From Candidatus Desantisbacteria bacterium CG1_02_38_46 (GTDB taxonomy: Bacteria; Desantisbacteria; UBA1551; UBA1559): DNA of 5,277 nucleotides. The notes below the pieces were generated by a model that did not search any database, was not told where the DNA came from, and saw nothing but the letters and a program-made list of their open reading frames with translations. The stretch lies in contig MNUO01000060.1 of assembly GCA_001871015.1 (NCBI GenBank), positions 1 through 5,277 on the forward strand. The letters run 5' to 3'. Each line of letters begins with the position of its first letter. Position 1 is the stretch's first letter. The translations under genes were made by a program, and so were the position numbers. Shown here in pieces: positions 1 through 4,910 of the stretch.

Positions 1-1715
1 CTGTCCAGGGAGCATGGCTTTCTGAGAGGGTGTGGGAACCACATCTGGCAAAGACCCTTGCAAGAGCAGGTTTGGAATATACACTGGTTGATGACCATCA
101 TTTCAGGCTCGCTGGCTTAAGTGATAATGAGATATACAACTATTTTACTACTGAAGAACAGGGTTTTTCGCTTAATGTTTTTCCTATTAATGAGAGGTTA
201 AGGTATCTTGTACCTTTCAAACCTGTGGAGCAGTGCATAAATTTCTTAAGGGAGAAAGCAGAGTCAGGGCAGGGGTTAATCACACTTGTTGATGACGGTG
301 AAAAATTTGGGGTCTGGCCTGGTACGCATAAATGGGTCTATGAGGAAAAATGGCTTGAAAATTTTTTCTCTAGTTTAGAGGAAAATGCATGGATAGAATT
401 GATAACCCTTAAAGATGCAATTAAAAAATATAATTCCCGTGGTCTTGTTTACATACCTGCGGGTTCATACAAGGAAATGCTTGAGTGGTCAGGAGGGTTC
501 TGGCGTAATTTTCTTACAAAATATCCAGAGGCAAATAATCTTCATAAGAAAATGTTATTGGTTAGTAAAAAGGTAAGAGCCGCGCAGAAATATGCAAATC
601 CCATTGTCTTCAGAAAAATTGAGGAGGAACTTTTTCAGGGACAGTGCAATGACCCATACTGGCATGGAATTTTTGGGGGATTGTACCTGAATTATTTGAG
701 GTCCAGTTCCTATTCTCACTTAATTGCTGCTGAGGTGATTGCCCAACGAGAAATTTATGGGAAAACAGAGGAATGGTTAGATATTGAAGTAGTTGATTTT
801 GACAGGGATGGCAGAGACGAGATATTAATGTCCAACAACCTTATTAATCTGTATCTCGACCCGGATTGCGGAGGGCATCTCTTTGAAATTGATTACAAGG
901 GTGGACCATGCATTAACATTTCTGATACTTTTTCACGCAGATATGAGGTTTACCATAGAAAAATAAGTGAGGCATTGAGCACTCCCCAGGATAATGACAC
1001 CAGGAGTATTCACGAAATGCTTAAGGTAAAGGAAAAAGGATTGGAAAAGCTGTTGGTTTACGATTCCTACAGGAGAGTTTCACTTATAGACCATTTCATT
1101 CCCGATGATGTTACCAGTCTCTCATTCAGAGATTTTCCTTCAATTTCACCTTTTGTTAATGGGTCCTACAAATATCAGATTTTTAGAAAGACAAAAAAAA
1201 TTATGACTGAATTAAAAAAAGAAGATGGAGGAATAAGTATCAGGAAGGAAATTCTAATGCAGACAAACAGGGCCTGTGCTTTTGTCCAATATGAGATAGA
1301 GAACCTCGGTAATGTGGAGTTGAAAAAACGATTTGGAATTGAATTCAACTTCTCTTTGCTTGCAGGTGATGACCCTGATAGATATTATGAGATTCCAGGG
1401 TTGGACTTAAAAGATAACAGGCTTATTTCAGTTGAGGAGATTGACGATGTGCAGGAAGTAAGACTCGTGGATAAATGGCAGGGATTTTTTATATCACTTA
1501 AATTTACCCAAAATTCAATGTTATGGCGTTTTCCTATTTATACAGTTTCTCAATCCGAGGAAGGAATGGAGCAAAACTATCAACATTCCACAGTTATACC
1601 AATCTGGAATTTAAAGATTCCTCCAGGGGAAAAATGGAAAACAAGTATTGTGTTAAATGTAACTCAGGGCTTTAGCCCTGATGGTATTGGAGTTAAATGT
1701 AACTCAGGGCTTTAG
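1..1715 (+). CDS. GH57 4-alpha-glucanotransferase / alpha-amylase, 5'-truncated by window edge
   Basis: This is the C-terminal part of a glycoside hydrolase family 57 enzyme, which breaks and re-forms alpha-1,4 links in maltodextrin, starch or glycogen. The frame is open from base 3 and reads WLSERVWEP at once. This is the GH57 motif with the catalytic nucleophile, the Glu codon at 24-26. The GTG at 30 lies after that residue and cannot be the start. About 120 N-terminal residues, including the first barrel motif, should lie upstream. Numbered from codon 30, DDGEKFGVWPG at about 88-98 holds the acid/base Asp (codon 294-296). QCNDPYWHGIFGG near 205-217 and the C-terminal beta-sandwich, with SQSEEG near 510, resemble Thermococcus litoralis 4-alpha-glucanotransferase from memory. 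The last 20 or so residues are encoded by a 40-bp tandem repeat, and the TAG stop lies in its second copy. Family is secure; transferase versus amylase activity is less so. No signal peptide can be judged. Confidence 0.93.
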   Translation, partial: VQGAWLSERVWEPHLAKTLARAGLEYTLVDDHHFRLAGLSDNEIYNYFTTEEQGFSLNVFPINERLRYLVPFKPVEQCINFLREKAESGQGLITLVDDGEKFGVWPGTHKWVYEEKWLENFFSSLEENAWIELITLKDAIKKYNSRGLVYIPAGSYKEMLEWSGGFWRNFLTKYPEANNLHKKMLLVSKKVRAAQKYANPIVFRKIEEELFQGQCNDPYWHGIFGGLYLNYLRSSSYSHLIAAEVIAQREIYGKTEEWLDIEVVDFDRDGRDEILMSNNLINLYLDPDCGGHLFEIDYKGGPCINISDTFSRRYEVYHRKISEALSTPQDNDTRSIHEMLKVKEKGLEKLLVYDSYRRVSLIDHFIPDDVTSLSFRDFPSISPFVNGSYKYQIFRKTKKIMTELKKEDGGISIRKEILMQTNRACAFVQYEIENLGNVELKKRFGIEFNFSLLAGDDPDRYYEIPGLDLKDNRLISVEEIDDVQEVRLVDKWQGFFISLKFTQNSMLWRFPIYTVSQSEEGMEQNYQHSTVIPIWNLKIPPGEKWKTSIVLNVTQGFSPDGIGVKCNSGL

Positions 1716-1817
1716 CCCTGATGGTGTTGGAGTTAAATGTAACTCAGGGCTTTAGCCCTGATGGTATTGGAGTTAAATGTAACTCAGGGCTTTAGCCCTG
1801 ATGGTGTTGGAGTTAAA
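1652..1817 (+). repeat. 40-bp tandem hairpin repeat, four copies plus 6 bp
   Basis: Four head-to-tail copies of exactly 40 bp start at 1652, 1692, 1732 and 1772, followed by GTTAAA. Copies are identical except for one base (A at 1686 and 1766, G at 1726 and 1806). The A/G alternation suggests that an 80-bp dimer was duplicated. Each copy carries the perfect hairpin TCAGGGC-TTTA-GCCCTGA (1664-1681, 1704-1721, 1744-1761, 1784-1801). A flanking TAACT can also pair with AGTTA near the end of the unit, leaving a bulge. Copy 1 is entirely inside the GH57 reading frame and copy 2 supplies its stop. Because 40 is not a multiple of three, each copy is read in a different frame. There is no T-run after the hairpins, so these are not standard intrinsic terminators. 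Confidence 0.97.
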
Positions 1818-1894
1818 CAAAATAAGAACCTGACTTCGTCAGAACCTTGTTTCTCGTAAGTGAAGTCGATAAAATGTCAAAATAGGGGTTTAAG
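1818..1894 (+). promoter_or_regulatory. ptsH leader with small hairpin and weak promoter candidate
   Basis: This short gap follows the tandem repeat. It contains the hairpin CTGAC-TTC-GTCAG (1830-1842). GACTTC (1832-1837) could instead pair with GAAGTC (1862-1867), so two mutually exclusive folds are possible. A weak sigma-70-like promoter is TTGTTT at 1847-1852, a 17-bp spacer, and TAAAAT at 1870-1875. That would start transcription near 1882, just upstream of the Shine-Dalgarno AGGGG (1884-1888), giving a very short leader. The promoter is a guess; ptsH may equally be read through from the GH57 gene. Confidence 0.25.
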
Positions 1895-2158
1895 ATGATA
1901 GCCACTGTGAGAATAATAAATAAATCAGGGTTACATGCGCGTTCCGCAGCCACCTTTGTCCAGCTGGCTAATAAATTTCAATCTCAAGTTAAAGTGAAAA
2001 AGGATGAGATTGAGGTTAATGGAAAAAGTATCCTTGGCATGATGATGCTTGGTGCGGTTTATGGAAGTAAGATTACCATTAAAGTTTCTGGCCTGGATGA
2101 GGAGGGGGCGATGGAGGGATTGAAGAATCTTATAAAGAGCAAGTTTGGCGAGGAGTAA
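1895..2158 (+). CDS. ptsH: Phosphocarrier protein HPr
   Basis: HPr is the small cytoplasmic phosphocarrier of the PTS. It takes phosphate from enzyme I on a histidine and passes it to EIIA domains. At 87 residues it has the normal family length. The active-site block GLHARSAA places the phosphorylated His at residue 14, followed by Arg16. The usual HARPA proline is Ser17 here. The segment GKSILGMMMLG places Ser45 at the position of Bacillus subtilis Ser46, the target of HPr kinase/phosphorylase. A regulatory role through HprK is therefore possible but unproven, since no hprK is in the window. The ATG is set by AGGGG at 1884-1888, six bases upstream. An earlier ATG at 1874 meets a stop almost at once. 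ptsI follows after 139 bp filled mostly by a repeat whose first copy begins two bases after the TAA stop. Confidence 0.96.
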   Translation: MIATVRIINKSGLHARSAATFVQLANKFQSQVKVKKDEIEVNGKSILGMMMLGAVYGSKITIKVSGLDEEGAMEGLKNLIKSKFGEE

Positions 2159-2159
2159 A

Positions 2160-2284
2160 TGTAGTGGTCGAGTTTACTCGACTGTATTGCAGAGCAATCT
2201 CTGCCACTAATGTAGTGGTCGAGTTTACTCGACTGTATTGCAGAGCAATCTCTGCCACTAATGTAGTGGTCGAGTTTACTCGAC
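2160..2284 (+). repeat. 51-bp tandem double-hairpin repeat, two full copies plus a 23-bp partial
   Basis: Identical full copies lie at 2160-2210 and 2211-2261; the partial third (2262-2284) ends four bases before the ptsI Shine-Dalgarno. Each full unit can fold as a three-way junction. The outer stem TAGTG/CACTA (2162-2166 with 2205-2209) encloses hairpin 1, GTCGAG-TTTA-CTCGAC (2167-2182), and hairpin 2, GCAGAG-CAAT-CTCTGC (2189-2204). Read on the other strand, the second half also begins TAGTGG followed by a stem and tetraloop. The unit therefore looks like two related hairpin elements placed head to head. The partial copy keeps only the outer left arm and hairpin 1. It fills the ptsH-ptsI gap and would be transcribed between them. 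No T-run follows. Confidence 0.96.
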
Positions 2285-2297
2285 GATTGAGGAATTT

Positions 2298-4028
2298 ATG
2301 ATTGAACTAAAAGGAATTGCGGCATCACCTGGTATAGCGATTGGCAGAACATTTTTCCTGGATAAGGAAGAATTTGCAATCAAAAAACACAAAATTGACA
2401 AAAAAAATATTGATGCTGAAATTTTCAGGTTTAATGAAGCTGTAGATAAATCACGTTTTGAACTGGTAGAGATCAAGAAAAAAATTGTGGAGTCCATAGG
2501 TCATAAAAATGCAAAGATATTTGATGCACATATTTTAGTATTAAATGACCCCTTATTTATAGAGAAAATTCATAACAGGATAAAAACGGAACTTTTGAAC
2601 GTTGAATATGCAGTCTGGATTACAACTGAAGAATTAAGCAATGCTTTTATACAATCAGGCGATTCGTTGGTTAGTGAGAGGGCCAGTGACATTCATGATG
2701 TTGGCAGGCGAATACTTAGAAATCTTTTAGGCAACGAGAGAGAAATTCTTGCAAGTTTGCAGGAAGAAGTAATAGTTGCTGCTGCAGACCTTGCTCCATC
2801 AGATACTGCGCAGATGCGAAAGGAAAAAGTTATAGGATTTGTAACTGATATGGGTGGAAGAACATCCCATGTTGCTATTATGGCTCGTTCTCTGGAAATT
2901 CCTGCAGTTGTTGGTTTAAAGGAAATAACTGAAAAAGTAGAGCCAGGTGACCTGTTAATCGTAGATGGAAATTCAGGAACAGTAATTGTCAATCCGGAAA
3001 ATGATGTCCTGAAAAAATACGAGAAGGAAAAGAAAAAAATTAGAGTTGTCGCGAGTGAACTCATTAAATTAAAAGACGTGATGGTACGCACCGTAGATGG
3101 TCATGAAGTGAGGCTCATGGCAAATATTGAAGGTCCTGAAGAAATAGAATCTGCAATTAATCACGGAGCTGAAGGTGTGGGATTATATCGCACAGAATTT
3201 TTGTATTTAAACCGTTCTGATTTACCCGGAGAAGAAGAACAATTTGAAGCATACAAGTATGTTGTAGATTTAATGAAACCACATCCCGTGACTATCAGGA
3301 CACTTGACCTTGGAGGTGATAAGTTTCTGTCACATTTAAATTTATCTCCTGAGATTAATCCCTCTCTTGGTTGCCGTGGCATAAGACTATGTCTGAATAG
3401 GCCTGATATATTTAAAATACATCTGCGTGCAATTCTACGTGCAAGTATTTTTGGTAATCTTAAAATTATGTATCCCCTTATTTCCGGGATAGAAGAATTG
3501 AAAAGGGCAAACCAGATTTTAGAAGAAGTTAAACAGGAATTAACATCAAAAGGTACTGAATTCAACAGGGATGTAGAGGTGGGTATTATGATTGAGGTTC
3601 CATCTGCAGCAATAATTGCGGACTTCCTTGCAAAAGAGACCAGATTCTTCAGCATTGGAACAAATGACCTTATTCAGTATTCACTTGCAATTGACAGAGT
3701 CAATGAAAAAATTGCTTATCTCTATGAGCCTTTACATCCAAGTGTATTGCGGTTGATTAAAGGAGTAATAGATACAGCGCACAACGCAGGCATTGAAATT
3801 GGAATGTGCGGAGAGATGGCAAGTGACCCATTGTTTATTCCGGTACTATTAGGAATGGGACTGGATGAATTCAGTATGGGTTCGATTTCTGTTCCGGTAA
3901 TAAAAGAAATTGTCAGGAATATATCGTTGGTTGAGGCTAAGGGATTGGCTGAAAAAGTAATGAATTTTTCCTCAGCAGGAGAAATTGAGGAATTCCTGCG
4001 AACGCAATTAAAAAAAAATCAGACCTGA
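2298..4028 (+). CDS. ptsI: PTS enzyme I (PEP-protein phosphotransferase)
   Basis: Enzyme I starts the PTS cascade in the cytoplasm by moving phosphate from PEP to its own histidine and then to HPr. At 576 residues it has full family length. The N-terminal HPr-binding and phosphohistidine domain carries GGRTSHVAIMAR with active-site His191. The C-terminal PEP-binding barrel has GLYRTEFL (Arg298), TIRTLDLGGDK (Arg334), the presumed Mg ligands Glu433 (MIEVPSA) and Asp457 (GTNDL), and the catalytic Cys504 in GMCGEMASDP. These run about two residues beyond E. coli numbering, so all key residues are present. The ATG follows GAGG at 2289-2292 by five bases. The gene lies directly after ptsH, as is usual. 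Its 3' end has a run of nine A (4010-4018), and its TGA stop is in the loop of a repeat hairpin (4019-4036). No EII gene is visible, so the final acceptor is unknown. Confidence 0.98.
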   Translation: MIELKGIAASPGIAIGRTFFLDKEEFAIKKHKIDKKNIDAEIFRFNEAVDKSRFELVEIKKKIVESIGHKNAKIFDAHILVLNDPLFIEKIHNRIKTELLNVEYAVWITTEELSNAFIQSGDSLVSERASDIHDVGRRILRNLLGNEREILASLQEEVIVAAADLAPSDTAQMRKEKVIGFVTDMGGRTSHVAIMARSLEIPAVVGLKEITEKVEPGDLLIVDGNSGTVIVNPENDVLKKYEKEKKKIRVVASELIKLKDVMVRTVDGHEVRLMANIEGPEEIESAINHGAEGVGLYRTEFLYLNRSDLPGEEEQFEAYKYVVDLMKPHPVTIRTLDLGGDKFLSHLNLSPEINPSLGCRGIRLCLNRPDIFKIHLRAILRASIFGNLKIMYPLISGIEELKRANQILEEVKQELTSKGTEFNRDVEVGIMIEVPSAAIIADFLAKETRFFSIGTNDLIQYSLAIDRVNEKIAYLYEPLHPSVLRLIKGVIDTAHNAGIEIGMCGEMASDPLFIPVLLGMGLDEFSMGSISVPVIKEIVRNISLVEAKGLAEKVMNFSSAGEIEEFLRTQLKKNQT

Positions 4029-4088
4029 AGGTCTGAGTTACGGACTTTAGTCCTGACTGAGTTACGTAACTCAGGACTTTAGTCCTGA
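4019..4088 (+). repeat. Cluster of three hairpin elements related to the 40-bp repeat
   Basis: Three related units lie in about 70 bp. Unit A (4019-4041) is TCAGACC-TGAA-GGTCTGA followed by GTTAC; on the minus strand it reads GTAACTCAG plus stem and a TTCA loop. Unit B (4042-4064) has GGAC-TTTA-GTCC and a right arm interrupted by an extra CTGA. Unit C (4066-4088) is GTAAC followed by TCAGGAC-TTTA-GTCCTGA. B and C meet head to head and form the perfect 18-bp palindrome CTGAGTTACGTAACTCAG (4057-4074). The constant AACTCAG and TTTA/TTCA loop match the repeats at 1652-1817, but the inner stem differs with pairing kept. Unit A contains the ptsI stop codon in its loop. On the minus strand unit A is followed by nine T, so it could terminate antisense transcription. 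On the + strand there is no T-run. Confidence 0.9.
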
Positions 4089-4359: not shown

Positions 4360-4704
4360 ATGCAAGATAAAGAAGTGATAGAATTTACTAAATCAATTTC
4401 TGGAAAAGAAATTAGACTTACATTTAAGCAGTGGTTCCACATCATAGAATCCCATGATTACATGGGTGGAAACATAGAAAAAGTAATGGAGACAATATCT
4501 TCTCCTGATTATATAATAAAAGGAATAAAAGGAGAATTGATTGCTATTAAGCATTACCATAATACTAACATAGGAGAGAAATGTTGTGTAGTAGTGTATA
4601 AAGAAGAAGAAAAAGAGGGTTTTATTATTACTGCTTTTTTTACTTCCAAACCAGAGACAATTAGAAAAGGGGGTGTAGTATGGCAAAAACAAAAGTTGGA
4701 ATAA
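4360..4704 (+). CDS. Small hypothetical protein, possible toxin/nuclease partner of a DUF2283 protein
   Basis: I do not recognise this 114-residue protein with certainty. It is soluble-looking, with no signal peptide or membrane segment. The pattern RLTFKQWFHIIESHDYM, then PDYIIKGIKGELIAIKHY, VVVYKE, GFIITAFFT and a terminal VVWQ resembles the small alpha/beta toxin-like proteins grouped with DUF4258 or BECR-fold (RelE/barnase-like) nucleases. His residues at about 27, 32 and 65 are candidate functional residues; the fold assignment is inference. The ATG follows GAGG (4349-4352) by seven bases. It overlaps the next gene by 25 bases, which implies translational coupling and a shared job. Toxin first and antitoxin second would match the HigBA or BrnTA order. 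The gene looks richer in A and T than ptsI by eye. A non-toxic function is equally open. Confidence 0.8.
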   Translation: MQDKEVIEFTKSISGKEIRLTFKQWFHIIESHDYMGGNIEKVMETISSPDYIIKGIKGELIAIKHYHNTNIGEKCCVVVYKEEEKEGFIITAFFTSKPETIRKGGVVWQKQKLE

Positions 4705-4910
4705 AGGAGTTTGATTCCTCTGTAATTCCCTATTTTCTTAAATTTCAGCAGGCTCATTATTGGGTTGATTATGATGAAGAGACAGATACTCTTTACATTA
4801 GTTTTCGAAAGCCACAATCTGCTAACGACAGCGTGATGAAAGGTAATTTCATTTACCATTATGACAACGATAGATTAGTAGGAGTTACAGTTTTACATGC
4901 AAAGGGTTAA
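4680..4910 (+). CDS. DUF2283-family small protein, possible antitoxin
   Basis: This 76-residue protein matches the DUF2283 pattern. VDYDEETDTLYISFRKP (about residues 29-45) is the usual YDEEADVLYI block, followed by the family's central Ser/Asn segment, then NFIYHYDNDRLVGVTVLHAKG, the usual 'D...GIxIL' ending. The family is small, of unknown biochemical function, and often found beside toxin-like small genes. The N-terminal 25 or so residues extend beyond the core and include PYFLKFQQAHYW. The ATG at 4680 is supported by the strong Shine-Dalgarno AAGGGGG (4667-4673), inside the upstream gene and six bases away. The start overlaps that gene by 25 bases, so the two are almost certainly co-transcribed. 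I see no helix-turn-helix DNA-binding motif. Family call is fairly firm; the antitoxin role is inference. Confidence 0.85.
   Translation: MAKTKVGIKEFDSSVIPYFLKFQQAHYWVDYDEETDTLYISFRKPQSANDSVMKGNFIYHYDNDRLVGVTVLHAKG

Follow-up and report, generated by a model that had tools for sequence, protein, structure and literature searches.

The window analysed here, a 5,277-nt stretch of Candidatus Desantisbacteria bacterium CG1_02_38_46, carries two clusters of short hairpins whose stem letters vary while the stems stay paired. This raises the question of what kind of element the hairpins are and what keeps them folded. REP elements are common bacterial repeats, and there is no settled account of how their enzymes recognise them or move them. 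A RAYT (TnpA-REP) is a small single-domain HUH/Y1 enzyme that is thought to copy REP elements around bacterial genomes. We consider it highly likely that the hairpins are REP elements, often dimeric, whose 23-nt units are handled as folded single-stranded DNA by a RAYT. This reading draws on their copy number, pairing, dimers and intergenic location, on junctions that lack the repeat in a relative, and on hairpin-flanked RAYT genes in relatives.

Hairpins within the window

The window carries genes for a GH57 alpha-amylase/glucanotransferase (truncated by the window edge), HPr, PTS enzyme I (EI) and a Memo-family protein, together with tRNA-Lys, tRNA-Glu and two small ORFs. The two small ORFs overlap (4360–4910); one encodes a DUF2283 protein and the other a PBECR2-like protein (RelE/Barnase-like nuclease), a weak match that misses the Pfam cut-off. 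They look like a toxin-antitoxin-type pair.

A search with the pattern AACTCAG-N3-TTYA-N3-CTGA, together with inspection of the sequence, gave six complete hairpin copies and one truncated remnant. The six pattern matches (1661–1681, 1701–1721, 1741–1761 and 1781–1801 on the + strand, 4019–4039 on the − strand, and 4068–4088 on the + strand) compare with a shuffle expectation of 0.01, and none of 200 shuffles reached six. GT precedes AACTCAG in all six complete copies, which share the frame GTAACTCA-NNNN-TTYA-NNNN-TGA. The element is 23 nt long and consists of the foot GTAAC, then TCA-NNNN / TTYA / NNNN-TGA; when folded, each complete copy pairs over 7 bp around a 4-nt loop and leaves GTAAC unpaired. 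The features are located as follows.

1652–1817, + strand: tandem array of four 40-bp units; overlaps the GH57 gene at its 3' end
1659–1681, + strand: REP copy, stem GGGC, loop TTTA (pattern, fold)
1699–1721, + strand: REP copy, stem GGGC; TAG at 1713–1715 ends the GH57 ORF 3–1715
1739–1761, + strand: REP copy, stem GGGC, loop TTTA (pattern)
1779–1801, + strand: REP copy, stem GGGC, loop TTTA (pattern)
2161–2284: second REP family between HPr and EI, as inverted dimers with a 51-bp period
4019–4041, − strand: REP copy, stem GACC, loop TTCA, holding the EI stop TGA at 4026–4028 (pattern, fold)
4042–4065, no strand assigned: remnant (sequence; folding gives just 4 bp)
4066–4088, + strand: REP copy, stem GGAC, loop TTTA (pattern, fold)

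Each 40-bp unit of the array is one REP copy plus 16–17 nt of flank. Array copy 1 lengthens the GH57 gene by 24 nt in frame, and unit 2 shifts the frame and supplies the stop. In the downstream cluster, 4042–4056 (GGACTTTAGTCCTGA) equals a + strand copy without GTAACTCA, and the adjoining 4057–4065 (CTGAGTTAC) equals the last 9 nt of a − strand copy. Judged by its sequence, 4042–4065 is a fused or truncated remnant outside the common hairpin frame.

The original prediction described seven hairpins with one frame; this holds for the six complete copies and fails for the seventh (4042–4056), which is without GTAACTCA and folds into a 4-bp stem. Its inner stems, GGC/GCC, GAC/GTC and ACC/GGT, are all present in the window sequence. 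The complete element that it envisaged, a 28-bp palindrome with a 12-bp stem, had to be abandoned: GTAAC folds unpaired, the stem has 7 bp, and the sequence 3' of CTGA differs among copies. AACTCAG is also less constant than was claimed, its G forming G-C or A-T with its partner among the genome copies.

Copy number, pairing and location in the genome

The window's own genome assembly (G000; 1.73 Mb in 133 contigs, 88% complete) contained 201 exact matches to the initial pattern and at least 250 exact copies under a widened frame, with zero matches to the reversed control in each case. Positional and pairing statistics refer to 333 kb of this assembly (about 19%), mostly contigs chosen as holding copies. 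For the pairing analysis, copies were picked by GTAACTCA alone with pairing not required, and all seven pairs were formed in 74 of the 88 anchors in the 333 kb. Among the 80 copies with at least five pairs, the inner four positions were paired at 98%, compared with 67% (maximum 75%) when arms were shuffled among copies. This is consistent with a requirement for the fold but not for most individual stem letters, so that changes occur in pairs only. The original prediction held that stem changes are compensatory and that one family appears to be kept in folded form, and it named many genome copies with paired changes as support. This was borne out at family scale by the 201 exact copies and the paired changes, and by RAYT genes that lie amid such hairpins in relatives.

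Although predicted ORFs span 92% of bases, only 11 of the 80 copies fall inside one (333 kb; rough ORF caller), and nine overlap gene 3' ends. Inverted dimers, both head-to-head and tail-to-tail, are common in this genome and in the comparison genome (G001); tail-to-tail dimers in G000 most often have no spacer, and head-to-head dimers in both genomes mostly have one of 2 or 5 nt. The family therefore shows a short palindrome in high copy, a mostly intergenic location, inverted dimers (REPIN/BIME) and complementary stem variation, as expected of REP elements, and lacks the tag GT[A/G]G.

The second REP family carries the tag GTAGTG; its stems are GTCGAG, GCAGAG or GCAGAC, and its loops include TTTA and CTTG. 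It also occurs at L187, L190, L193, L197, L200 and L203 and has 48 perfect copies in the 333 kb; a RAYT for it was not found.

Junctions compared with a related genome

The comparison genome belongs to the same order only and is presumably Candidatus Desantisbacteria CG1_02_49_89. Its GH57-HPr-EI order is identical to that of the window. At the GH57-HPr junction it has no GTAAC repeat, and in the window the array supplies the final codons of the ORF together with its stop. The HPr-EI junction has one GTAAC copy in G001 and the different, GTAG-tagged family in the window. The EI gene ends in a hairpin in both genomes, with a different sequence in G001. These differences indicate gain or loss of copies since the two lineages diverged. 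Two window genes (the GH57 ORF and EI) thus have stop codons that come from REP copies, a contribution of REP elements already described in passages of PMC3733652.

RAYT genes among the same hairpins

Y1 transposases were present in G000 and in 16 of 16 other genomes searched. One Y1 type, of about 160–170 aa with the motifs PDHLH and YI..NP (YIFNNP), is located between GTAAC hairpins. G001 has two such genes (86% identical), three Deltaproteobacteria-side genomes have one each (G044, G046 and G148), and a Nitrospinae MAG (G045) has a decayed RAYT gene amid GTAAC hairpins. The protein has the HUH motif and the Tyr motif Y..NP and passes the NCBIfam profile for REP-associated tyrosine transposases (NF047646; 94.7 bits, cut-off 80). 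It matches the E. coli structure PDB 4er8 with only distant sequence similarity (E 3e-5), and its structure prediction, whose mean pLDDT of 64 is too low to judge residue geometry, has the ISDra2 transposase and 4er8 as best PDB matches. Other Y1 loci tested in the same genomes, IS200 and DnaA-tailed types among them, were without such hairpins in the flanks examined, except for one copy ~1.2 kb off at L125. No relatives of the RAYT were found in viral contigs and plasmids. A c-di-GMP-I riboswitch match lies near the RAYT pair of G001 (L131:951–1062, − strand).

The RAYT gene that the original prediction proposed to look for was therefore found in relatives, flanked by the same hairpins; that a cognate RAYT was not found in the window's own 88%-complete assembly counts against the REP reading. 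Nor was one found in several other copy-holding genomes, such as G043 (13 copies) and G053 (21 copies). The G000 Y1 genes on contigs C60, C109 and C53 were rejected as the cognate enzyme, there being no copies in the flanks examined; the C60 and C109 proteins are just 28% identical to the cognate RAYT. The C109 gene (L012:1462–2445) is intact and encodes a Y1 protein of 327 aa whose C-terminal domain is DnaA-like, and GTAAC copies are absent nearby; Y1 proteins with such a domain have been published as not REP-associated.

A few copies of the window hairpin also occur in L018, L026, L047 (Magasanikbacteria), L038 (Patescibacteria), L021 (Zixiibacteriota), and L050 and L062 (Methylomirabilota). 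A cognate RAYT was not found in those assemblies, and either horizontal transfer or an error of binning may account for the copies.

If it works as the E. coli and group-3 enzymes do (PMC8266576), the RAYT would bind the folded single strand by its GTAA(C) foot, TTYA loop and paired 7-bp stem, cleave next to the hairpin and transfer it to another site. Copies would settle chiefly between genes and at gene 3' ends, and each paired stem variant would then spread as a subfamily. Both the cleavage steps and the movement of these copies by this RAYT are inferred.

Alternative explanations

The hairpins could instead act as RNA elements (terminators or 3' mRNA stabilisers), with pairing kept by selection on transcripts and spread being secondary. 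Copies do lie downstream of genes, 22 of 66 of them within 30 bp of the upstream stop or overlapping it, and passages of PMC3733652 credit published REPs with such roles. We nevertheless regard this as very unlikely, given that orientation relative to genes shows no clear preference (38 same, 28 opposite), that G-U pairs are nearly absent and mispairs are chiefly A-C (G000 copies in the 333 kb), that an Rfam search gave no match, and that foot, loop and stem recur beside RAYT genes in other phyla. More improbable still, to the point of near dismissal, is an origin of the hairpins as termini of IS200/IS605 elements. Subterminal hairpins do form the ends of IS200, and an IS200-like gene lies at the edge of contig C53 in G000, but the hairpins do not bound an IS200-type tnpA, being absent near the C53 gene and near IS200-type loci of other genomes, and the copies far outnumber Y1 genes.

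A more serious contender, which we hold to be possible without favouring it, is that the REP family is now an orphan in G000, its RAYT lost and its copies persisting or duplicating passively through tandem duplication or gene conversion. It would account for the close RAYT that was not found in this genome and for tandem arrays such as 1652–1817, and loss of the REPtron is reported for many E. coli strains in passages of PMC3733652. However, about 12% of the genome is absent from the assembly, in which some contigs (C4 and C19) end in REP clusters. Moreover, 74 of the 80 copies are perfectly paired, so any RAYT loss would be recent.

The GTAA tag and the residue aligned with E. coli Q95

In this family GTAA forms the foot of 68 of the 72 distinct copies sampled from G000 and of 66 of the 68 from G001, the remainder being GTAG. 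Passages of PMC3686654 and PMC2817692 define the REP tag as GT[A/G]G, and degenerate forms described in parts of PMC3733652 retain the final G. A GTAA tag was not found in the running text on published REP families. A text search of the literature found GTAACTCAGG in 31 papers; by title, the 20 matches listed look like chance, and none of these 20 concerns REP elements. With a foot of GTAA and not GT[A/G]G, the hairpins are not filed as a canonical GTAG family, and a foot outside the tag by which the literature defines REPs counts against the REP reading. The T that precedes the foot was considered as a sign of the target site, and this reading was also rejected: by eye, the GTAG family of G000 often shows the same T.

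Otherwise the window family resembles the GTAG-tagged REP/RAYT families of Nunvar 2010 (PMC2817692), Nunvar 2013 (PMC3686654) and Di Nocera 2013 (PMC3733652). Shared features are a conserved 5' tag on a short palindrome, copies in the hundreds that lie between genes, dimers, alternative complementary stem letters, a RAYT flanked by its own repeats (here in relatives), and the supply of stop codons; those families differ in keeping G at tag position four. The window family also shares short perfect palindromes with published group 3 (Corneloup 2021, PMC8266576). As in E. coli TnpA-REP (4er8) and the group 2/3 enzymes (PMC8266576), the protein is of the HUH/Y1 kind and keeps the residues aligned with W94, E/D100, H101 and R104. 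It differs from the E. coli enzyme in having His in place of Q95, and E. coli REPs are longer and bulged.

In E. coli, Q95 contacts the tag (PMC8266576). A wider search of related RAYTs showed hairpins that are alike in general design and nearly always GTAG, and at the residue aligned with Q95 the GTAA set has His where the GTAG set has Gln. Scored by the commonest foot at each locus, His occurs with GTAA at six loci and GTAG at one (L160, a counterexample), whereas Gln occurs with GTAA at none and GTAG at 25 (Fisher p about 8e-6, kinship ignored). At L159 (G388), a Gln locus, the feet of the flanking hairpins are mixed (GTAG, GTAA, GTAT and GTGG) on similar stems. The Brocadiaceae REPtron L136 has the same stems and loops (TCAGGGCTTCAGCCCTGA, TCAAACCTTCAGGTTTGA) but the canonical GTAG tag and Gln, and its RAYT (foot GTAGC) nests among His/GTAA proteins (92/86). 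The tree contains one or two Gln/His contrasts, too few for significance, and His may have one or more origins (p-AU 0.15). Since related sequences are non-independent and the contrasts so few, we treat the link between Gln/His and foot as a hypothesis.

We tentatively suggest a natural change of tag specificity in these RAYTs, in which replacement of Gln by His at the position of E. coli Q95 accompanies a shift of the tag from GTAG to GTAA, stem and loop being unchanged; under the published cross-pairing model of how the cleavage site is chosen, the cut would then also shift from CT to TT. The CT cut site has been tied to tag A3 and G4 (PMC8266576), and by analogy GTAA should favour TT. Recognition of GTAA in place of GTAG by this RAYT clade we infer with less confidence.

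Implications

The window hairpins belong to a REP family of known kind, and what sets it apart is the GTAA tag and the His at the tag-contacting site. The family extends the REP/RAYT kind to Candidatus Desantisbacteria, with one hairpin frame common to bacteria of several phyla. Because near-identical hairpins stand one tag base apart and their enzymes differ at the tag-contacting residue, a few swaps could probe how the tag is recognised.
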